From contig JAJRPJ010000011.1 of the NCBI GenBank assembly GCA_024280835.1, positions 186,001-250,000 on the forward strand: DNA of 64,000 nt, read 5' to 3'. This document shows, in pieces, positions 7,505 to 13,992 of this stretch (position 1 is its first letter; the number at the start of each line of letters is the position of its first letter). The notes under the pieces were generated by a model. That model made no database searches. It saw only the letters and a program-made list of their open reading frames with translations, and was not told the origin of the DNA. This stretch comes from Candidatus Zixiibacteriota bacterium. Lineage in GTDB: Bacteria > Zixibacteria > MSB-5A5 > GN15 > JACZUZ01. The position numbers and the translations under genes were made by a program.

Positions 7505-8641
7505 CTATCTCTCTTTTAGAAGCGTTGCTGTAACAAGCCCCATAATAACTCCAGCAAAAGTATTCAAAGCAAGTATGCCTACAACGGTGAGCAACAACAC
7601 CGTGAAGCCGCGCTTGTCAGTGACGGACATGGCTGGTTTTGATAATTCTATGCCTGCGAAAACCAAGAGTGTCCCAAGAATTGAGAGTGGGTAGTATTGC
7701 AGTAATGTCATGGCCCCTACACCCAGCGAAATGCCGACAATTAACTTGCCGATTCCAAGCATGACCACCGAACCACCAGTTCTTGCACCAAAATGATACT
7801 GCCCCGCCAAACCTCCCGAGCCATGACACATGGGCATTGCTCCAAACCAACAGAAGAGTAAGTTCATCGCTCCTACTGATGTGGCCATTGATTTAGTTGA
7901 GATGCGTTTGTTTGGGAAAAGATCACCAGAGAGAGCGCAGACAGCAATCACTGAGTTCAAGAGCGTCAACGACAGTTGTGGCAATGCTCCACGTAGGAAT
8001 CCCTGACGCCATTCTGTGAGAGTCGGAATGATAAATTGTAATTCCAAACTACCTGGCTGAAAGAATGTTGTACCACTGGGAAGATTAATAAACATAATGG
8101 CTATTCCCACAGCAAAGATCCCGAGCGCAGTTGGGATTTGTTTGGCGCGCATTAGGGCTAACGTTATCACACCCAAGATGATTGCAATCAAGGCCCCATC
8201 TAGCGCCAGCCAATCAGCGCCAGCGATAAACTCCACTCCTTTGATGGCGAGCTTTAGACCTACTCCAAGTTGAATACCGCGCACTACTGCAACTGGGACA
8301 ATGTTCTTGATTTTTTCAACAGCGCCAGTAGCGCTCAGGGTTATCATCAGGACACCCATCAGCAATCCAGCGGCAGCAATTTCACCTGTTCCGAGTTGTT
8401 CGGCAATCGCCACCGCGGCAATCGCTTTCATAGGTTGAACTGGAACTGGCAAACCGAACAAGACACCTGTGAGAATATTGGCGATTCCTGCGAAGATCAA
8501 GACCACAGCTATGTCCATCCCATTGGCTAGTGACATAGCCACAGCCAGTGGGATGAAAGTGCCCAAGTCTCCGAGCCCGCCTGAGAACTCCATCAAACTG
8601 AAGCGCATCTCCCGAATGTTAGTAGCGATATTTACGAACAT
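7505..8641 (-). CDS. MOT1-type molybdate (SulP-like) permease
   Basis: 378 aa, almost wholly hydrophobic, with about ten membrane segments. The N-terminal GGLGDLGTFIPLAVAMS and VPVQPMKAIAAVAIAEQ are hallmark motifs of the MOT1/sulfate-permease-like family that imports molybdate across the inner membrane. It is the last gene of a seven-gene molybdenum cofactor operon, 23 nt after moeA, which supports molybdate rather than sulfate as substrate. A GGAG lies 8 nt before the chosen ATG; an alternative start at MRFSLMEF (8608) is possible. No ABC-type modABC genes are in the window, so this may be the cell's route for molybdate. Confidence 0.85.
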   Translation of the reverse strand: MFVNIATNIREMRFSLMEFSGGLGDLGTFIPLAVAMSLANGMDIAVVLIFAGIANILTGVLFGLPVPVQPMKAIAAVAIAEQLGTGEIAAAGLLMGVLMITLSATGAVEKIKNIVPVAVVRGIQLGVGLKLAIKGVEFIAGADWLALDGALIAIILGVITLALMRAKQIPTALGIFAVGIAIMFINLPSGTTFFQPGSLELQFIIPTLTEWRQGFLRGALPQLSLTLLNSVIAVCALSGDLFPNKRISTKSMATSVGAMNLLFCWFGAMPMCHGSGGLAGQYHFGARTGGSVVMLGIGKLIVGISLGVGAMTLLQYYPLSILGTLLVFAGIELSKPAMSVTDKRGFTVLLLTVVGILALNTFAGVIMGLVTATLLKER

Positions 8642-8664: not shown

Positions 8665-9894
8665 CTATCTTAGTAAATCATCCCAAAACAAGACATCGAC
8701 GGTATTAGTGACGGCTGTTTTGTCTTTCCTTTTGCGCTCAATTATCAGGCCGTCGCTATTGAGTAAAGCGGTTAGTGACGCTGATGATTTCTTAGTTGAA
8801 TATTCGGCGACAAATTCAGAACCTTCACGGCGAATTTTTCCTGGCCAAAGTAACATTCGTTTGCCAGAGCGAGAGTTCGATTTCAAAGTGGCCGCCACTG
8901 GTTTCGGTAAATAATCTCGATAGCCACACATTTTCTTAAGCGCAGGAATGACCAAAGTGGCGCAGGTCACCGCTGTTGAAAGTGGATTACCTGGCAGACC
9001 CAAGAGCAACTGGGCGCCACGTTTGGCAAAGAACACTGGCTTACCAGGTTTCATAGCAATCTTGTGAAACATCTCTTCCCAACCCAGCTCGGAAGATACA
9101 GGTGGGACCAAATCTTTATCCCCTGCGGAAACTCCTCCACTGGTAATTAGCATATCGATGTCTGAATTGTTATCACTATCGAGCGCTCCACGTAGAGCGT
9201 GTTCGGTATCCCCAACTGGAGCGCTATGCTCGATTCGTTCACAGAATGTTTGGATGAGAGCCGCTATTGTATAGCGATTGGAATTGTAGATCTGCCCAAA
9301 TTGCAATTCCGTTCCAGGCGCTACCAGTTCATCACCTGTGGTAAAGACAGAAACGCGCGGTCTGCGATGGAGGCTAACGGTTGCCAGCCCCATACTCGCC
9401 AACATCCCAGGCTCTAGGGCGGTGAAGCGATGCCCCGCTCGAAACACTGTCTCTCCTACACTAAGGTCTTCGCCAGCTGGCCGAACATTCGCGCCGTTTT
9501 TTGCAGGTCGGATAAAAGTGACAGATTCCTCGGTAAAGGTCACATCCTCGACTTTGACGACTGTGTCATAGCGATTTGGAACAGCGGCGCCTGTCATGAT
9601 TTTCAGCGCCTGATTTGAATTGTCTTCAGCCACCTTATCTTGCGTACTAGCGCCAGCATACACGACGTCCACCACCGGCAATGTGATCGGTGAACTTTCC
9701 GAACAATTCTCAAGTAGCTCTGCTCTAATAGCAAAGCCGTCCATTGCCGAATTACGGAAACCCGAGACATTGACTGGTGAGACTATATCCTGCGCCAGAA
9801 TGCGACCGACGACATCGCTGACAGCGACATTCTCTGCTGGCAGAACGCTCACACTGTTGATAATCATCTTTATTGCAGAATCAAACTCAATCAA
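8665..9894 (-). CDS. moeA: Molybdopterin molybdenumtransferase MoeA
   Basis: 409 aa, normal length. Domain order is that of MoeA: N-terminal linker, the DGFAIRAE region (conserved SAMDGFA near residue 50), the MoCF-binding core with TSGGVSAGDKDLV (Asp in the metal-insertion site), PGKPVFFAKR and GLPGNPLS, then the C-terminal beta domain. It inserts molybdate into adenylated molybdopterin in the cytoplasm, releasing AMP. Embedded between mogA (27 nt away) and the molybdate permease, so metal uptake and metal insertion are encoded together. Confidence 0.95.
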   Translation of the reverse strand: MIEFDSAIKMIINSVSVLPAENVAVSDVVGRILAQDIVSPVNVSGFRNSAMDGFAIRAELLENCSESSPITLPVVDVVYAGASTQDKVAEDNSNQALKIMTGAAVPNRYDTVVKVEDVTFTEESVTFIRPAKNGANVRPAGEDLSVGETVFRAGHRFTALEPGMLASMGLATVSLHRRPRVSVFTTGDELVAPGTELQFGQIYNSNRYTIAALIQTFCERIEHSAPVGDTEHALRGALDSDNNSDIDMLITSGGVSAGDKDLVPPVSSELGWEEMFHKIAMKPGKPVFFAKRGAQLLLGLPGNPLSTAVTCATLVIPALKKMCGYRDYLPKPVAATLKSNSRSGKRMLLWPGKIRREGSEFVAEYSTKKSSASLTALLNSDGLIIERKRKDKTAVTNTVDVLFWDDLLR

Positions 9895-9921: not shown

Positions 9922-10416
9922 CTATATTTCTTCAGCGCAATCAGCTACTCTACTTGCCAATAATTTCAAGGGATGCTCAAAAGTTGGCAATAGAAACTCC
10001 ATTAGCTCCCCAACAGCCTTTGGTGAGCCTGGTAGATTGATGATGAAAGTTGAGCCAACAATTCCTGAAACGGCCCGTGAATACATAGCGAACTTGGCTT
10101 TCTCGGCGCTGTAGCGTCTTAGCGCCTCGTCAACACCAGGAGGGGGGCGTTCAATCAGGTTGGCGGTTACTTCGGGAGTATTATCGCGCGGGGCGCAACC
10201 AGTGCCACCACTGGTAAGCACAAGCTGCATGTTTTTGGCTATGAACTCTTTGAGCGCCTGTTCGATTTCAACAGGCGTGTCACTGACAATCTCTGTGAGA
10301 ACAATTTCAAATAACGAATTGTTCAGCCACTTTTTGAACACAGGTAGACATCCGTCAGCTCGTTCGCCCGAAGCGGCTCTATCAGAGACTATAAGTATGC
10401 CGACCTTATATTTCAC
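9922..10416 (-). CDS. mogA: Molybdopterin adenylyltransferase (MogA/MoaB family)
   Basis: 164 aa. N-terminus KVGILIVSDRAASGERADG and the core TSGGTGCAPRDNTPEVT are the MoCF-binding motifs of MogA/MoaB. The enzyme adenylates molybdopterin with ATP, providing the substrate for MoeA. The length fits MoaB slightly better than MogA (about 195 aa); no second copy is in the window, so it is presumably the working enzyme. Fifteen nt separate it from moaC on the same strand. Confidence 0.92.
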   Translation of the reverse strand: MKYKVGILIVSDRAASGERADGCLPVFKKWLNNSLFEIVLTEIVSDTPVEIEQALKEFIAKNMQLVLTSGGTGCAPRDNTPEVTANLIERPPPGVDEALRRYSAEKAKFAMYSRAVSGIVGSTFIINLPGSPKAVGELMEFLLPTFEHPLKLLASRVADCAEEI

Positions 10417-10430
10417 ATAAGCTCCCGTCT

Positions 10431-10910
10431 CTAGTTGCGATTGTTAAAGTCACCTGACTTACCGCCACGCTTTTCTAGTAGTTTTAGATCAGTGATGACA
10501 ATATCTTTTTGAATCGCTTTGAGCATATCATAGATAGTCAAAGCAGTGACACTACAAGAGGTTAGCGCTTCCATTTCGACACCTGTCCGCCACAAGCAGT
10601 TGGCAGTAGCTTCTACGGTTACTGTCTTTAGTTGGTCATCCAATTTGAATTGGAGATTGATGCTCTGCAAGGGGATTTGATGACAAAGCGGGATTAGGTC
10701 TGACGTTTTCTTGGCAGCCTGAATGCCAGCGATCTTGGCAACAGTCAAGACATCGCCTTTGGCTATTTTGTTTTCGATTAGCGCGGTATAGGCCTCACTA
10801 TTGAGGATTACTGTCACTGTTGCTGTAGCTATTCGCTCAGTTAGTTCTTTTCCGCCAGTGTCCACCATTTTGGCGTGGCCGCTCTTATCGACATGGCTTA
10901 ATTTGCTCAT
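10431..10910 (-). CDS. moaC: Cyclic pyranopterin monophosphate synthase MoaC
   Basis: 159 aa, usual length. Shows the N-terminal KLSHVDKSGHAKMVDTGGK, the substrate-binding LIPLCHQIPL (His and Cys conserved) and the C-terminal MLKAIQKDIVITDLKLLEKRGGKSGDF, with the catalytic Lys-Asp-Lys set in KAIQKD..I.D..L..K.GGKSG. It converts the MoaA product 3',8-cyclo-GTP to cPMP. Only 3 nt from the end of moaA. MPT synthase genes (moaD/moaE), which act next, are not present here. Confidence 0.95.
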   Translation of the reverse strand: MSKLSHVDKSGHAKMVDTGGKELTERIATATVTVILNSEAYTALIENKIAKGDVLTVAKIAGIQAAKKTSDLIPLCHQIPLQSINLQFKLDDQLKTVTVEATANCLWRTGVEMEALTSCSVTALTIYDMLKAIQKDIVITDLKLLEKRGGKSGDFNNRN

Positions 10911-10913
10911 GCC

Positions 10914-11858
10914 TTAGCCGCCTATTTCTGAGAGTGACGGCAAGAACTGGCCTTTGACTGGCTCAGTGTGGCAGCCGACATAACGTTTCTGGGCCATGAA
11001 ACCATCAACCTGTTTCTCGGCGGCTTCATGGCCACCATCAAGCATAGCAAACAAGTCTGTGCAGTGCCCTGAGAACAAACAACTGTATAGCTTGCCGTCA
11101 GAGACAAGTCGAATCCGATTGCAAAAGTCACAAAACGGTTCACTAACTGAATTTATGAAGCCAACATTGATTTTCAATTGTGGTGAGTTGTAATATCTCG
11201 CTGGAGAAGCTTTTTCGGTTGGCGCTGGCGCGAAGGCATAGCCGATTCGGCGCATGGTATCAGCGCCAGAGACGAAGCCACGGTTCGACGAAGCGCTGTA
11301 CTTGGTTGGCATGAACTCGATAAAGCGCATGTCCACACCCAAATCGTTGGCGAAGTCTACCATTGCCTTAACGTCGCCGTCATTGACGCCTTTGACCACC
11401 ACACAGTTTAGTTTGACTGTCGGAATAACTTTGACTGCTTCGCGAATACCAGCGACTACTTTCTCAAAACAGTCAACAGTTGTAATCGCTCTAAACTTGT
11501 CGGGGTCAACAGTGTCGATACTGACATTGACACTATCTAATCCCGCGTCGGCTAGCTCCTGCGCTTTGCGTTTGAGCAACCGCCCATTGGTGGTGATAGC
11601 CACTGGCATTGACGCATCCAGAGATTTGGTGTAGGCAATTAGTTCTGCGACATGCGGATAGAGTGTCGGCTCACCGCCAGTAAAACGCACACGCTCGATG
11701 CCAAGGTGATGCATAAGTTTGATTGATTGTTTAAACAATTCTGGATCAGTAAAGTCCTTTGGGCCATAGGAGTCTATTGACGGCGGACGACAGTAGAAAC
11801 AATTGAAATTGCAGGCTGCAAGTAGTGAAACTCGTAAATACTTCATTCTATCATTCAT
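10914..11858 (-). CDS. moaA: GTP 3',8-cyclase MoaA (radical SAM)
   Basis: 314 aa. The N-terminal radical-SAM cluster CNFNCFYC (CxxxCxxC) binds the SAM-ligated 4Fe-4S. GGEPTLYP is the SAM-binding glycine motif. The C-terminal cluster motif CDFCNRIRLVSDGKLYSCL binds the second, GTP-ligating cluster. The protein ends in Ile-Gly-Gly, the conserved double-glycine tail needed for activity in known MoaAs, so it looks intact. It catalyses the first step from GTP in the cytoplasm. Oxygen sensitivity of the clusters fits the linkage to nitrate respiration. Confidence 0.96.
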   Translation of the reverse strand: MNDRMKYLRVSLLAACNFNCFYCRPPSIDSYGPKDFTDPELFKQSIKLMHHLGIERVRFTGGEPTLYPHVAELIAYTKSLDASMPVAITTNGRLLKRKAQELADAGLDSVNVSIDTVDPDKFRAITTVDCFEKVVAGIREAVKVIPTVKLNCVVVKGVNDGDVKAMVDFANDLGVDMRFIEFMPTKYSASSNRGFVSGADTMRRIGYAFAPAPTEKASPARYYNSPQLKINVGFINSVSEPFCDFCNRIRLVSDGKLYSCLFSGHCTDLFAMLDGGHEAAEKQVDGFMAQKRYVGCHTEPVKGQFLPSLSEIGG

Positions 11859-11882: not shown

Positions 11883-12380
11883 TTAACGCACTTTTGCGTT
11901 GTTTGTATATTCTGCTTTAAGGATAAACGTCACTAATGAATCAAGTTCCTCATCTTTGAAATGTGGGATTTCAGAGTCTAAGACATCTGCGCCGTAACTG
12001 GCGACTATACCCTCTGGTAACTGTCCTTTTAGTCCATCTCGATTGCGCATGAGAAATAGCTTTGGTCTGGCTGATGATTTGTCCCCTTCGATGAGACAAA
12101 TATCAAAACTTTCTTTGATAATTCGCCAAGCAATGTTCTGGTATTCATCATGGGGCAGGGCGAAGACTGCCATTTCGGATTTGCCGATGGCCATAGTCAA
12201 ACCCGCGCCTGCCAGGCGATGACGGAATGAATCTTTGCCTGGGGTGTCGAATGTGTGTGTATGGCCAGTGTGTTTCACTGTGGCGACTTTCAGTCCTTGG
12301 GTGATAATCAATGGAATCAATTTCTCCACCAAGGTTGTTTTGCCAGAATTCTTGGCTCCGACTATCCCAAACTCAATCAC
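11883..12380 (-). CDS. mobB: Molybdopterin-guanine dinucleotide biosynthesis adaptor MobB
   Basis: 165 aa. N-terminal P-loop GAKNSGKTT at residues 8-16, then VKHTGHTHTFDTPGKDSFRH, both diagnostic of MobB, a GTP-binding helper of MobA. Its start overlaps the end of mobA by 4 nt (ATGA), so the pair is translationally coupled. Role: assists formation or delivery of the bis-MGD cofactor used by DMSO-reductase-family enzymes such as NarG. Confidence 0.94.
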   Translation of the reverse strand: MIEFGIVGAKNSGKTTLVEKLIPLIITQGLKVATVKHTGHTHTFDTPGKDSFRHRLAGAGLTMAIGKSEMAVFALPHDEYQNIAWRIIKESFDICLIEGDKSSARPKLFLMRNRDGLKGQLPEGIVASYGADVLDSEIPHFKDEELDSLVTFILKAEYTNNAKVR

Positions 12381-12979
12381 AGTGACACATCCTCTCGGCC
12401 AACCTGAGTTTGGATGTCATCTGGTGTGTTTATGTTTCGCCAAATAGTTTTCTTAACTGGAAGGAATCGCGAATTAAGCTCTTTTACGATTTCCCACAAT
12501 CGATAAGGTCGGTTTTCTTTGGCGACAGCTATAAATGTTTCAAGTGTGTGTTTCGAATATATGCCACAAAGCGGCTGGATATTTCCAGCTTCCAAAAGAC
12601 CGAGATAATCTTCCCCTGAATAATTCGCGCAAAGAGCTTTTATAGTCGAAGTGTCAATATCCGCTAGATCAGCAGCAACAACAAAGCAGGCTTCATCTTG
12701 GCAGTTTGCTAAGGCGGCAATCACGCCACCCAATGGACCTAGGGCATTCGGATAATCAATTATAACTGGTAGAGAGAAATCACTGAACTTTTCAGAGCTC
12801 TTGGCTACTAGCGCCACATTCTCAAATACCGAATGACAGGCGGCAAGTGTATGCTCAAGCAGTGGCTGACCGTCGACAGTGACGAACAATTTGTCGCGTC
12901 CCATTCTTCGGCTGGCTCCACCCGCCAAGACATAGGCCTGCCGAATCGCTATTTCTGGTTGTCTTTCGGTATTTTTCAT
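12377..12979 (-). CDS. mobA: Molybdenum cofactor guanylyltransferase MobA
   Basis: 200 aa. The nucleotide-binding motif YVLAGGASRRMGRDKLF occupies residues 16-32; ADLADIDT supplies the metal-binding Asp, as in MobA nucleotidyltransferases. It attaches GMP from GTP to molybdenum-molybdopterin. First gene of the cofactor operon; its ATG is 31 nt downstream of a strong intrinsic terminator on the same strand and has no obvious Shine-Dalgarno or promoter of its own. Expression must therefore depend on reading through that terminator, which is the main argument for regulation by the leader RNA upstream. Confidence 0.94.
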   Translation of the reverse strand: MKNTERQPEIAIRQAYVLAGGASRRMGRDKLFVTVDGQPLLEHTLAACHSVFENVALVAKSSEKFSDFSLPVIIDYPNALGPLGGVIAALANCQDEACFVVAADLADIDTSTIKALCANYSGEDYLGLLEAGNIQPLCGIYSKHTLETFIAVAKENRPYRLWEIVKELNSRFLPVKKTIWRNINTPDDIQTQVGREDVSL

Positions 12980-13010
12980 TTTGTCGACTCTATTTGAATC
13001 TACTCGCCAT

Positions 13011-13043
13011 AAAAAAATCCGTGACCGGTTTGGTCACGGATTT
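13011..13043 (-). terminator. Strong intrinsic terminator in front of mobA
   Basis: Read on the minus strand, AAATCCGTGACC (13043-13032) pairs perfectly with GGTCACGGATTT (13026-13015) around the five-base loop AAACC, giving a 12-bp stem, and runs into seven T residues (13017-13011). No gene ends immediately before it: narI stopped 233 nt upstream. It therefore terminates the leader transcript rather than a coding gene. Confidence 0.9.
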
Positions 13044-13185
13044 CGAGATATCAATACAGAACATCAAAGATGCGCCATGAATCGACAATTCGTGTAAGCT
13101 CCTTTGCCAAACCGGGCAGGTCGGAGGATTGCTCCTCGGGCCGTAGAGTCCCTGCTGACCACGTGGGCCCTGCAGGGTTCGAAGC
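13011..13185 (-). ncRNA. Candidate riboswitch/attenuator leader RNA of the molybdenum cofactor operon
   Basis: About 175 nt between a consensus promoter and the terminator before mobA. Visible pairings: CCCTGC...GCAGGG (hairpin around 13176-13149), GAGGA-GCAA-TCCTC (13138-13125), a five-pair stem closed by a GNRA tetraloop, and an enclosing set AACC/GGTT plus AGCT/AGCT. Together they suggest a three-way junction. CCGGTTTGG (minus, 13115-13107) is exactly complementary over 9 nt to CCAAACCGG at the apex of the terminator (13033-13025), so an alternative antiterminating structure exists. Location before Moco genes and the GNRA loop recall the known Moco riboswitch, but I cannot verify the match. 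Alternatives: a stand-alone sRNA, or a 6S-like RNA. Confidence 0.65.
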
Positions 13186-13191
13186 TGAATC

Positions 13192-13220
13192 AATATACTA
13201 TTTCTGTTCTACTGTTTCAA
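13192..13220 (-). promoter_or_regulatory. Sigma70-type promoter of the leader RNA / mob-moa operon
   Basis: On the minus strand TTGAAA (13220-13215), a 17-nt spacer, then TATATT (13197-13192). Five of six consensus bases in each box with optimal spacing. Predicted transcription start near 13185. It lies in the narI-mobA gap and is the only clear promoter for the cofactor operon. Confidence 0.7.
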
Positions 13221-13275: not shown

Positions 13276-13992
13276 CTAGGATCTATCTCTTTCGCCTGCA
13301 ATCAGTTTTCTATTCTTGTACCAACGGACAACCTGATGGCGACGGAAAAGGAAGTGATTTGGGACGACCAAGACATGAACTAGACGAGTGAATGGGAAAA
13401 TACCTATCAAAACAAAGGCGTTGATTACGTGCAGCTTCACCATCAATGGCAAAGCTGAAATGTAACTCACATTGGGGCTGAACTCGGCCAAAGACCAAAG
13501 ATAGGGAGTCATTGCTCCTGGGAACCATGACGAACCCCAGCGATTGAACAAGGCCATATACAAGCCAATTACAATCTGTAACACCAGGAAGAATAACAAC
13601 ACCCAGTCAGCTTTGCTGGTTACCATCCGCACTTTTGAATGTTTGAGCCGGCGACGAATTAGAGCTATGACACCAATAAACGACAGGGCCGCAAAAGCGA
13701 ACATCGTCGCTTCTAAGACATAGAGCCGCACTGGAACACTGTTCCAATTCAAGACCAATTTCGGGAAGAGCATCATCACGGTGTGCCCTGTCAAGACAGC
13801 AATCAAGCCATAGTGAAAAGGCACCATTCCCCAAAAGTGGGTTTTGTTTTCCAGAAACTGTGATGAGAGACTAGAAAAAGTAAACTTCTGTACCCGATAG
13901 CGCTGGATAGTGACGAAGAAAAACGTAAACAGCGCCACATACGGAAACACACCGAACAAAATCTGATCGAACAACAATCCTGAGCTATCCAC
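13276..13992 (-). CDS. narI: Respiratory nitrate reductase gamma subunit NarI
   Basis: 238 aa from a GTG at 13992. This start has AAAGGAAG six nt upstream and overlaps narJ by 8 nt. The frame is open to an ATG at 14070, but those extra 26 residues are polar, repetitive (QKVQESQKVQ) and overlap narJ by 86 nt. About five membrane segments begin at LFGVFPYVALFTFFFV. Histidines in the helices (PFHYGLIAVLTGH and KLHVINAFVLIGIFPFTRLVH) are the haem b ligands expected of NarI. It anchors NarGH at the cytoplasmic face and takes electrons from quinol. Its stop lies 91 nt before the leader-RNA transcription start. Confidence 0.92.
   Translation of the reverse strand: MDSSGLLFDQILFGVFPYVALFTFFFVTIQRYRVQKFTFSSLSSQFLENKTHFWGMVPFHYGLIAVLTGHTVMMLFPKLVLNWNSVPVRLYVLEATMFAFAALSFIGVIALIRRRLKHSKVRMVTSKADWVLLFFLVLQIVIGLYMALFNRWGSSWFPGAMTPYLWSLAEFSPNVSYISALPLMVKLHVINAFVLIGIFPFTRLVHVLVVPNHFLFRRHQVVRWYKNRKLIAGERDRS

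Follow-up and report, generated by a model that had tools for sequence, protein, structure and literature searches.

Upstream of mobA, the first gene of a molybdenum cofactor (Moco) operon, the minus strand of the window (the whole 64,000-nt stretch of DNA that was analyzed) carries a leader that raises two questions: is it a riboswitch, and, if so, of which class? A sequence-only reading had described a promoter, a foldable RNA and a terminator with a matching antiterminator. We found every one of these elements at its described position in the leader (13220-12980), and we consider it highly likely that they make up an OFF riboswitch that acts in cis by terminating transcription and forms a structurally distinct sub-class of the Moco family. 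The leader is organized as follows.

13192-13220, minus strand: sigma-70-like promoter, with the -35 box TTGAAA (13220-13215), a 17-nt spacer and the -10 box TATATT (13197-13192).
13097-13186, minus strand: variant Moco-family aptamer with four helices, matched by covariance model R1 over 13187-13096 (103.9 bits) and by RF01055 over 13196-13083 (22.5 bits).
13181-13186, minus strand: 5' strand of P1, AGCTTC, with the partner GGAGCT at 13102-13097.
13150-13177, minus strand: P2, CCCTGC (13177-13172) paired with GCAGGG (13155-13150), with a short apical part in which no tetraloop receptor was seen.
13143-13149, minus strand: junction J2/4, ACTCTAC, in the place of P3 in P3-bearing Moco RNAs.
13119-13142, minus strand: P4 hairpin, with a GCAA tetraloop at 13132-13129.
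13105-13118, minus strand: P5 hairpin, TGCC-CGGTTT-GGCA, doubling as the putative antiterminator strand CCGGTTTGG (13115-13107).
13097-13105, minus strand: AAAGGAGCT, a Shine-Dalgarno-like sequence that includes the 3' strand of P1 and whose AAAGG is common to the canonical Moco RNAs aligned.
13015-13043, minus strand: terminator hairpin of 12 bp, stem 13043-13032 / 13026-13015, loop AAACC.
13033-13025, minus strand: terminator apex CCAAACCGG, complementary to P5.
13011-13017, minus strand: T7 tract of the terminator, seen in the sequence.

The leader folds to -70.1 kcal/mol against -55.1 ± 4.4 kcal/mol for dinucleotide shuffles, all 200 of which it beats (RNAfold, z -3.4). The near-consensus promoter is present as claimed. 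It matches 10 of 12 consensus positions, which by itself is no better than chance since one such site is expected in this region alone, but its register is kept in the nearest relative (TTGAAG-17-TACATT) and promoter-like pairs are enriched at the same register across 26 sequences (summed score 189 versus 139 ± 14 for shuffled sequences, reached in 0 of 300; kinship uncorrected). The expected transcription start is at the foot of P1. The earlier statement that mobA has no other promoter also agrees with the relatives: the first gene begins at most 19 nt past the hairpin in 19 of the 23 sequences, usually after 2-10 nt, leaving no space for a promoter beyond the terminator.

The aptamer core (about 13184-13099) is 77-94% identical in 19 genomes of the same order, out of 60 related genomes searched by BLASTN. 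Model R1, built from 20 sequences, matches 21 of 80 genomes of this order (Zixibacteria) at 88-112 bits, whereas it gives the canonical Moco RNAs of the order only about 36 bits. Outside the order, it also matches five genomes from other families of the class. Among 84,980 species genomes, a pattern scan picked up 19 loci, 18 of them in Zixibacteria or in unnamed or mislabelled bins, so that this exact form of the variant hardly occurs outside Candidatus Zixiibacteriota. The pattern match in Massilia (L056) was taken as chance because model R1 does not find it, and the short, weak matches (about 24 nt) seen in many genomes probably represent T-arms of tRNAs (L028 is a tRNA). One carrier, contig DYGG01000001.1 (L061), is labelled Ignavibacterium sp. 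and is probably a mislabelled bin.

In the alignment of these relatives, 95% of the cells are standard pairs and 11 pairs change on both sides, giving a covariation score above 500 of 500 shuffles and all slid controls. Covariation is found in P1, in four of seven pairs of P2 and in five of ten pairs of P4; the P5 stem is invariant in 20 sequences. The GNRA-capped stem of the sequence-only reading corresponds to P4, and its loop is GYAA (GCAA or GUAA) in 27 of 27 sequences, one of which is a second, weak match in G117. The 12-bp terminator with its T7 tract, also part of that reading, was missed by a simple terminator scan but is confirmed by RNAfold and by the relatives: a strict script recovers a hairpin plus T-run in 18 of 23 sequences (0.4 expected), and in the other five the hairpin is bulged or the T-run is shorter.

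The genes downstream of the terminator follow each other on the same strand.

12377-12979, minus strand: mobA, molybdenum cofactor guanylyltransferase, the first gene controlled (PF12804, 108 bits).
11883-12380, minus strand: mobB (PF03205).
10914-11858, minus strand: moaA (PF04055 and PF06463).
10431-10910, minus strand: moaC (PF01967).
9922-10416, minus strand: mog/moaB-type molybdopterin-binding protein (PF00994).
8665-9894, minus strand: moeA (PF03453 and PF00994).
7505-8641, minus strand: MOT1-type molybdate transporter (PF16983, 198 bits).

Within the order, the variant always precedes mobA-mobB, usually followed by moaA-moaC-mog-moeA and in several genomes by the MOT1 transporter. In the other families of the class it lies before mog (G117) or before moaA (G125-G127), so that the RNA is placed upstream of Moco synthesis genes, as is typical of the Moco RNA family. 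At moaA loci lacking the variant (G044, G068, G022, G051, G070 and second copies), neither RNA type is present. In one genome (L012, G036), mobB is followed by mog without moaA and moaC in between, and the bin has no member of either family elsewhere, reflecting a deletion or an assembly error. This context bears on the idea that the hairpin merely terminates the nar operon at its 3' end and adjoins an unrelated structured gap, or that the leader is a trans-acting small RNA. The narI gene indeed ends just upstream, at 13276, and promoter plus terminator delimit a unit of about 175 nt. However, the RNA keeps its position ahead of mobA, mog or moaA even where a gene other than nar lies upstream, its spacing to the gene is tight, and no conserved copy standing apart from Moco genes was found. 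We regard this explanation as very improbable.

The central claim of the sequence-only reading was that P5 and the terminator apex form mutually exclusive structures, the design of a terminating riboswitch. CCGGTTTGG (13115-13107) is the exact 9-nt complement of CCAAACCGG (13033-13025), and the complement is conserved in relatives together with the stems. Between species, the P5 loop letters GT, AC, GA, GC and AA occur together with the apices CCAACCGG, CCTGTCGG, CCGTCCGG, CCTGCCGG and CCGTCGGG, respectively. The duplex between P5 and its own terminator averages -14.2 kcal/mol, compared with -12.8 ± 0.3 kcal/mol after permutation, and none of 20,000 permutations was as low (18 distinct pairs; phylogeny uncorrected). 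In simulated folding, transcripts cut in the terminator loop form the P5:apex duplex in most sequences (about 10 pairs in the window), and with the 3' arm added the window forms the terminator and P5 together. In some relatives the antiterminator is still favoured after the 3' arm is added, which fits a switch that needs ligand to terminate. The fit is less good in part of the set: in two of 23 sequences (G043 and G059) the terminator matches P5 poorly, and the antiterminator simulated for G026, G048, G057 and G004 is weak or partial or does not last. Overall, the claimed design is borne out by conservation, covariation and folding of a switch-like kind, with aptamer/antiterminator and terminator pairings that exclude each other and covary, as in terminator-type riboswitches.

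Instead of serving as an antiterminator, the same complementarity could provide a loop-loop (kissing) contact that stabilizes the terminated state with ligand bound. Its centre lies in the two loops, and the full-length fold contains both hairpins. Yet the complement extends through the loops into both stems (8-10 bp), where it is unusable without opening the hairpins, and the cut transcripts fold into the exchange duplex. A kissing contact is therefore improbable in our view.

Under the antiterminator model, RNA polymerase would begin at the base of P1 and then produce P1, P2, P4 and P5 of the aptamer. Bound ligand, for which Moco or a late precursor is the likeliest candidate, would lock P5 in the aptamer, the terminator would fold freely, and transcription would stop at the T-run, switching off mobA-mobB-moaA-moaC-mog-moeA-mot1. 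Without ligand, the P5 strand CCGGTTTGG would capture the emerging apex CCAAACCGG, leaving the hairpin incomplete and allowing the operon to be read. Here we infer ligand binding, termination itself and, from hairpin geometry and feedback logic, the OFF direction.

The hairpin may also act on ribosomes. In most relatives it covers the ribosome-binding region as well, with the mobA start abutting the T-run, so translation would probably be blocked too; where mobA starts 2-10 nt past the hairpin, a joint control of termination and of ribosome access is probable. In genus g22 (L013, L012, L011, L015, L044), the terminator 3' arm contains the consensus Shine-Dalgarno sequence GGAGG, only a few nucleotides upstream of the start of mobA, and the terminator is merged with the ribosome-binding site. 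In G043 and G059 (L025 and L024), the P5 complement is degraded and the mobA frame apparently starts upstream of the hairpin, after the P1 AAAGGAG, and runs through it. This upstream start points to a translational platform in these two genomes.

These observations give some weight to a reading in which the RNA acts mainly on translation, the hairpin being a Shine-Dalgarno sequestrator with an incidental T-run and the ligand altering access to the ribosome-binding site, as does the E. coli platform, which has its ribosome-binding site in P1 (PMC2408646). Against it stand the T-runs of 4-9 after the hairpin, the window itself, where mobA starts 36 nt past the hairpin, and G117, where a purine-rich ribosome-binding site lies well past the hairpin. 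A mainly translational switch is possible but, on balance, rather unlikely. In the window, an ATG right after the T-run opens a six-codon frame (12990-13010; MASRFK, stop) whose end lies 10 nt upstream of mobA, and mobA of the relatives starts at about the place of this frame, which could be a relic or serve as a coupling ORF. A leader peptide translated from the Shine-Dalgarno-like sequence of P1 was rejected as a general mechanism, since its length, frame and presence are not conserved.

Which class does this terminating riboswitch belong to? At gathering scores, Rfam finds only one tRNA over the window and no family in the leader. A permissive scan of 401 nt places RF01055, the Moco RNA motif, at the expected site over the full model length (22.5 bits, E 0.004), below the curated gathering score of 36 bits; the relatives score 20-36 bits. 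The RF01055 scan of the whole own genome does not list the leader, which is a limit of sensitivity because the 401-nt scan detects it. Matches to snoRNA, Atu_C9 and similar families were noise, and no hit to an unrelated RNA family emerged. At the nucleotide level, the alignment matches the Moco core of E. coli moaA and of canonical Zixibacteria RNAs (CUCCGA; CCU.CCCG; UUGG.AAAGGAG). Helices P1, P2, P4 and P5 are present and P3, which is optional in the Moco RNA family, is absent. The variant P5 carries an inserted G-C pair (CCU-G-CCCG..UUGG-C-AAAGG versus the canonical CCU-CCCG..UUGG-AAAGG) in 26 of 26 good members, with A replacing G in one. No canonical tetraloop receptor was seen by eye in P2 of the variant; a scripted receptor flag, positive in seven variants, was loose and unreliable and missed some canonical RNAs. 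In the canonical set the P4 loop is GAAA, save for one RNA in which the script called none.

By alignment and predicted structure, the leader RNA is a divergent, structurally distinct sub-class of the Moco riboswitch family RF01055 and homologous to the Moco riboswitch. The sequence-only reading had left the class open: kinship with Moco RNAs stands, a wholly new architecture is not supported, and the variant may possibly differ from the rest of the family in its ligand specificity. On this assignment, the RF01055 model of Rfam overlooks a whole lineage of Moco RNAs.

Exactly which ligand the Moco riboswitch recognizes is, as stated in PMC10845959, yet to be identified, and Moco RNAs lacking P3 have been proposed, on the basis of correlation, to sense the tungsten cofactor, Tuco (PMC2408646). 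Nine genomes of the order carry a canonical P3-less Moco RNA above the gathering score (68-82 bits), and none of the nine has the variant. The absence of any genome shared between the 21 with the variant and these nine is suggestive but not significant alone. In the nine canonical-RNA genomes, including two bins rated 100% complete, MoaA, MoaC, MoeA and MoaE were not found. By profile, MoaA occurs in 19 of the 21 variant genomes versus 0 of 9 canonical ones (exact test, about 4e-6, relatedness uncorrected). True NarI (above 190 bits) was found in six genomes, all six with the variant. The tungsten-enzyme gene AOR (PF02730) occurs in four of 79 genomes overall, two of them canonical and none variant-bearing within the order; the variant thus shares the lack of P3 with the tungsten-cofactor sub-group but not the host genes. 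The correlation fits the variant poorly, because its nitrate-reductase genome has no AOR and variant genomes carry the Moco operon. From gene context, we favour Moco or a late precursor over Tuco as its ligand.

A tentative extension is that the variant has a ligand preference of its own, having been retuned, by the extra P5 pair and the new J2/4, for Moco or a precursor made de novo, while the standard P3-less RNA of the same order senses the tungsten cofactor or an imported cofactor. If true, P3 is not the determinant of metal choice. The two P3-less forms in the same bacterial families also offer a natural contrast for locating ligand-determining nucleotides, since the variant always lies before Moco synthesis genes and the other form occurs in genomes without the pathway.

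The nine genomes without MoaA, MoaC, MoeA and MoaE may import the cofactor. We observed canonical Moco RNAs before a TonB-dependent receptor gene (L029 218-2155, L031 5772-7775, L032 2646-4568, L030 9675-11624, L033, L034); the best NCBIfam relative of the receptor, below cut-off, is the vitamin B12 receptor, and several of these loci lie near formate dehydrogenase-N and fdhD-mobB-mobA. The vitamin B12 receptor BtuB is under cobalamin riboswitch control. By analogy, the arrangement suggests that these Zixibacteria take up Moco or molybdopterin across the outer membrane and that a riboswitch controls this uptake. Just upstream of canonical Moco RNAs there is also a short, apparently multi-pass membrane protein (L029 2592-3239, L032 5013-5828, L068 4677-5270, L069 6945-7580), with no NCBIfam match and, for the one tested, no Pfam match; it is a candidate for the inner-membrane part of a cofactor importer.

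Compared with known systems, the variant shares with the P3-bearing E. coli moaA type (RF01055) the order of P1, P2, P4 and P5, the CUCC-GA, CCU.CCCG and UGG.AAAGG core, a GNRA loop on P4, the placement before Moco biosynthesis genes and the feedback logic. It differs in lacking P3, which is replaced with its flanks by J2/4 (ACUCUAC), in a shorter P2 without tetraloop receptor, in GYAA instead of GAAA, in the additional G-C pair of P5, in the terminator plus antiterminator platform and in a score under the Rfam gathering score. The P3-lacking Moco RNAs proposed as sensors of tungsten cofactor (PMC2408646), represented by nine genomes of the same order, likewise have no P3 and have the same core. 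Unlike the variant, these canonical P3-less RNAs keep GAAA and have a longer P2 (CCUAAG/UAUGG type), and in most cases read they precede a TonB receptor, near formate dehydrogenase, whereas the variant occurs in genomes with the Moco operon. Finally, four of 176 Moco RNAs lack the receptor and have a GCAA loop (PMC2408646); as in the variant, the GCAA loop accompanies receptor loss, and these RNAs may be its nearest published relatives.
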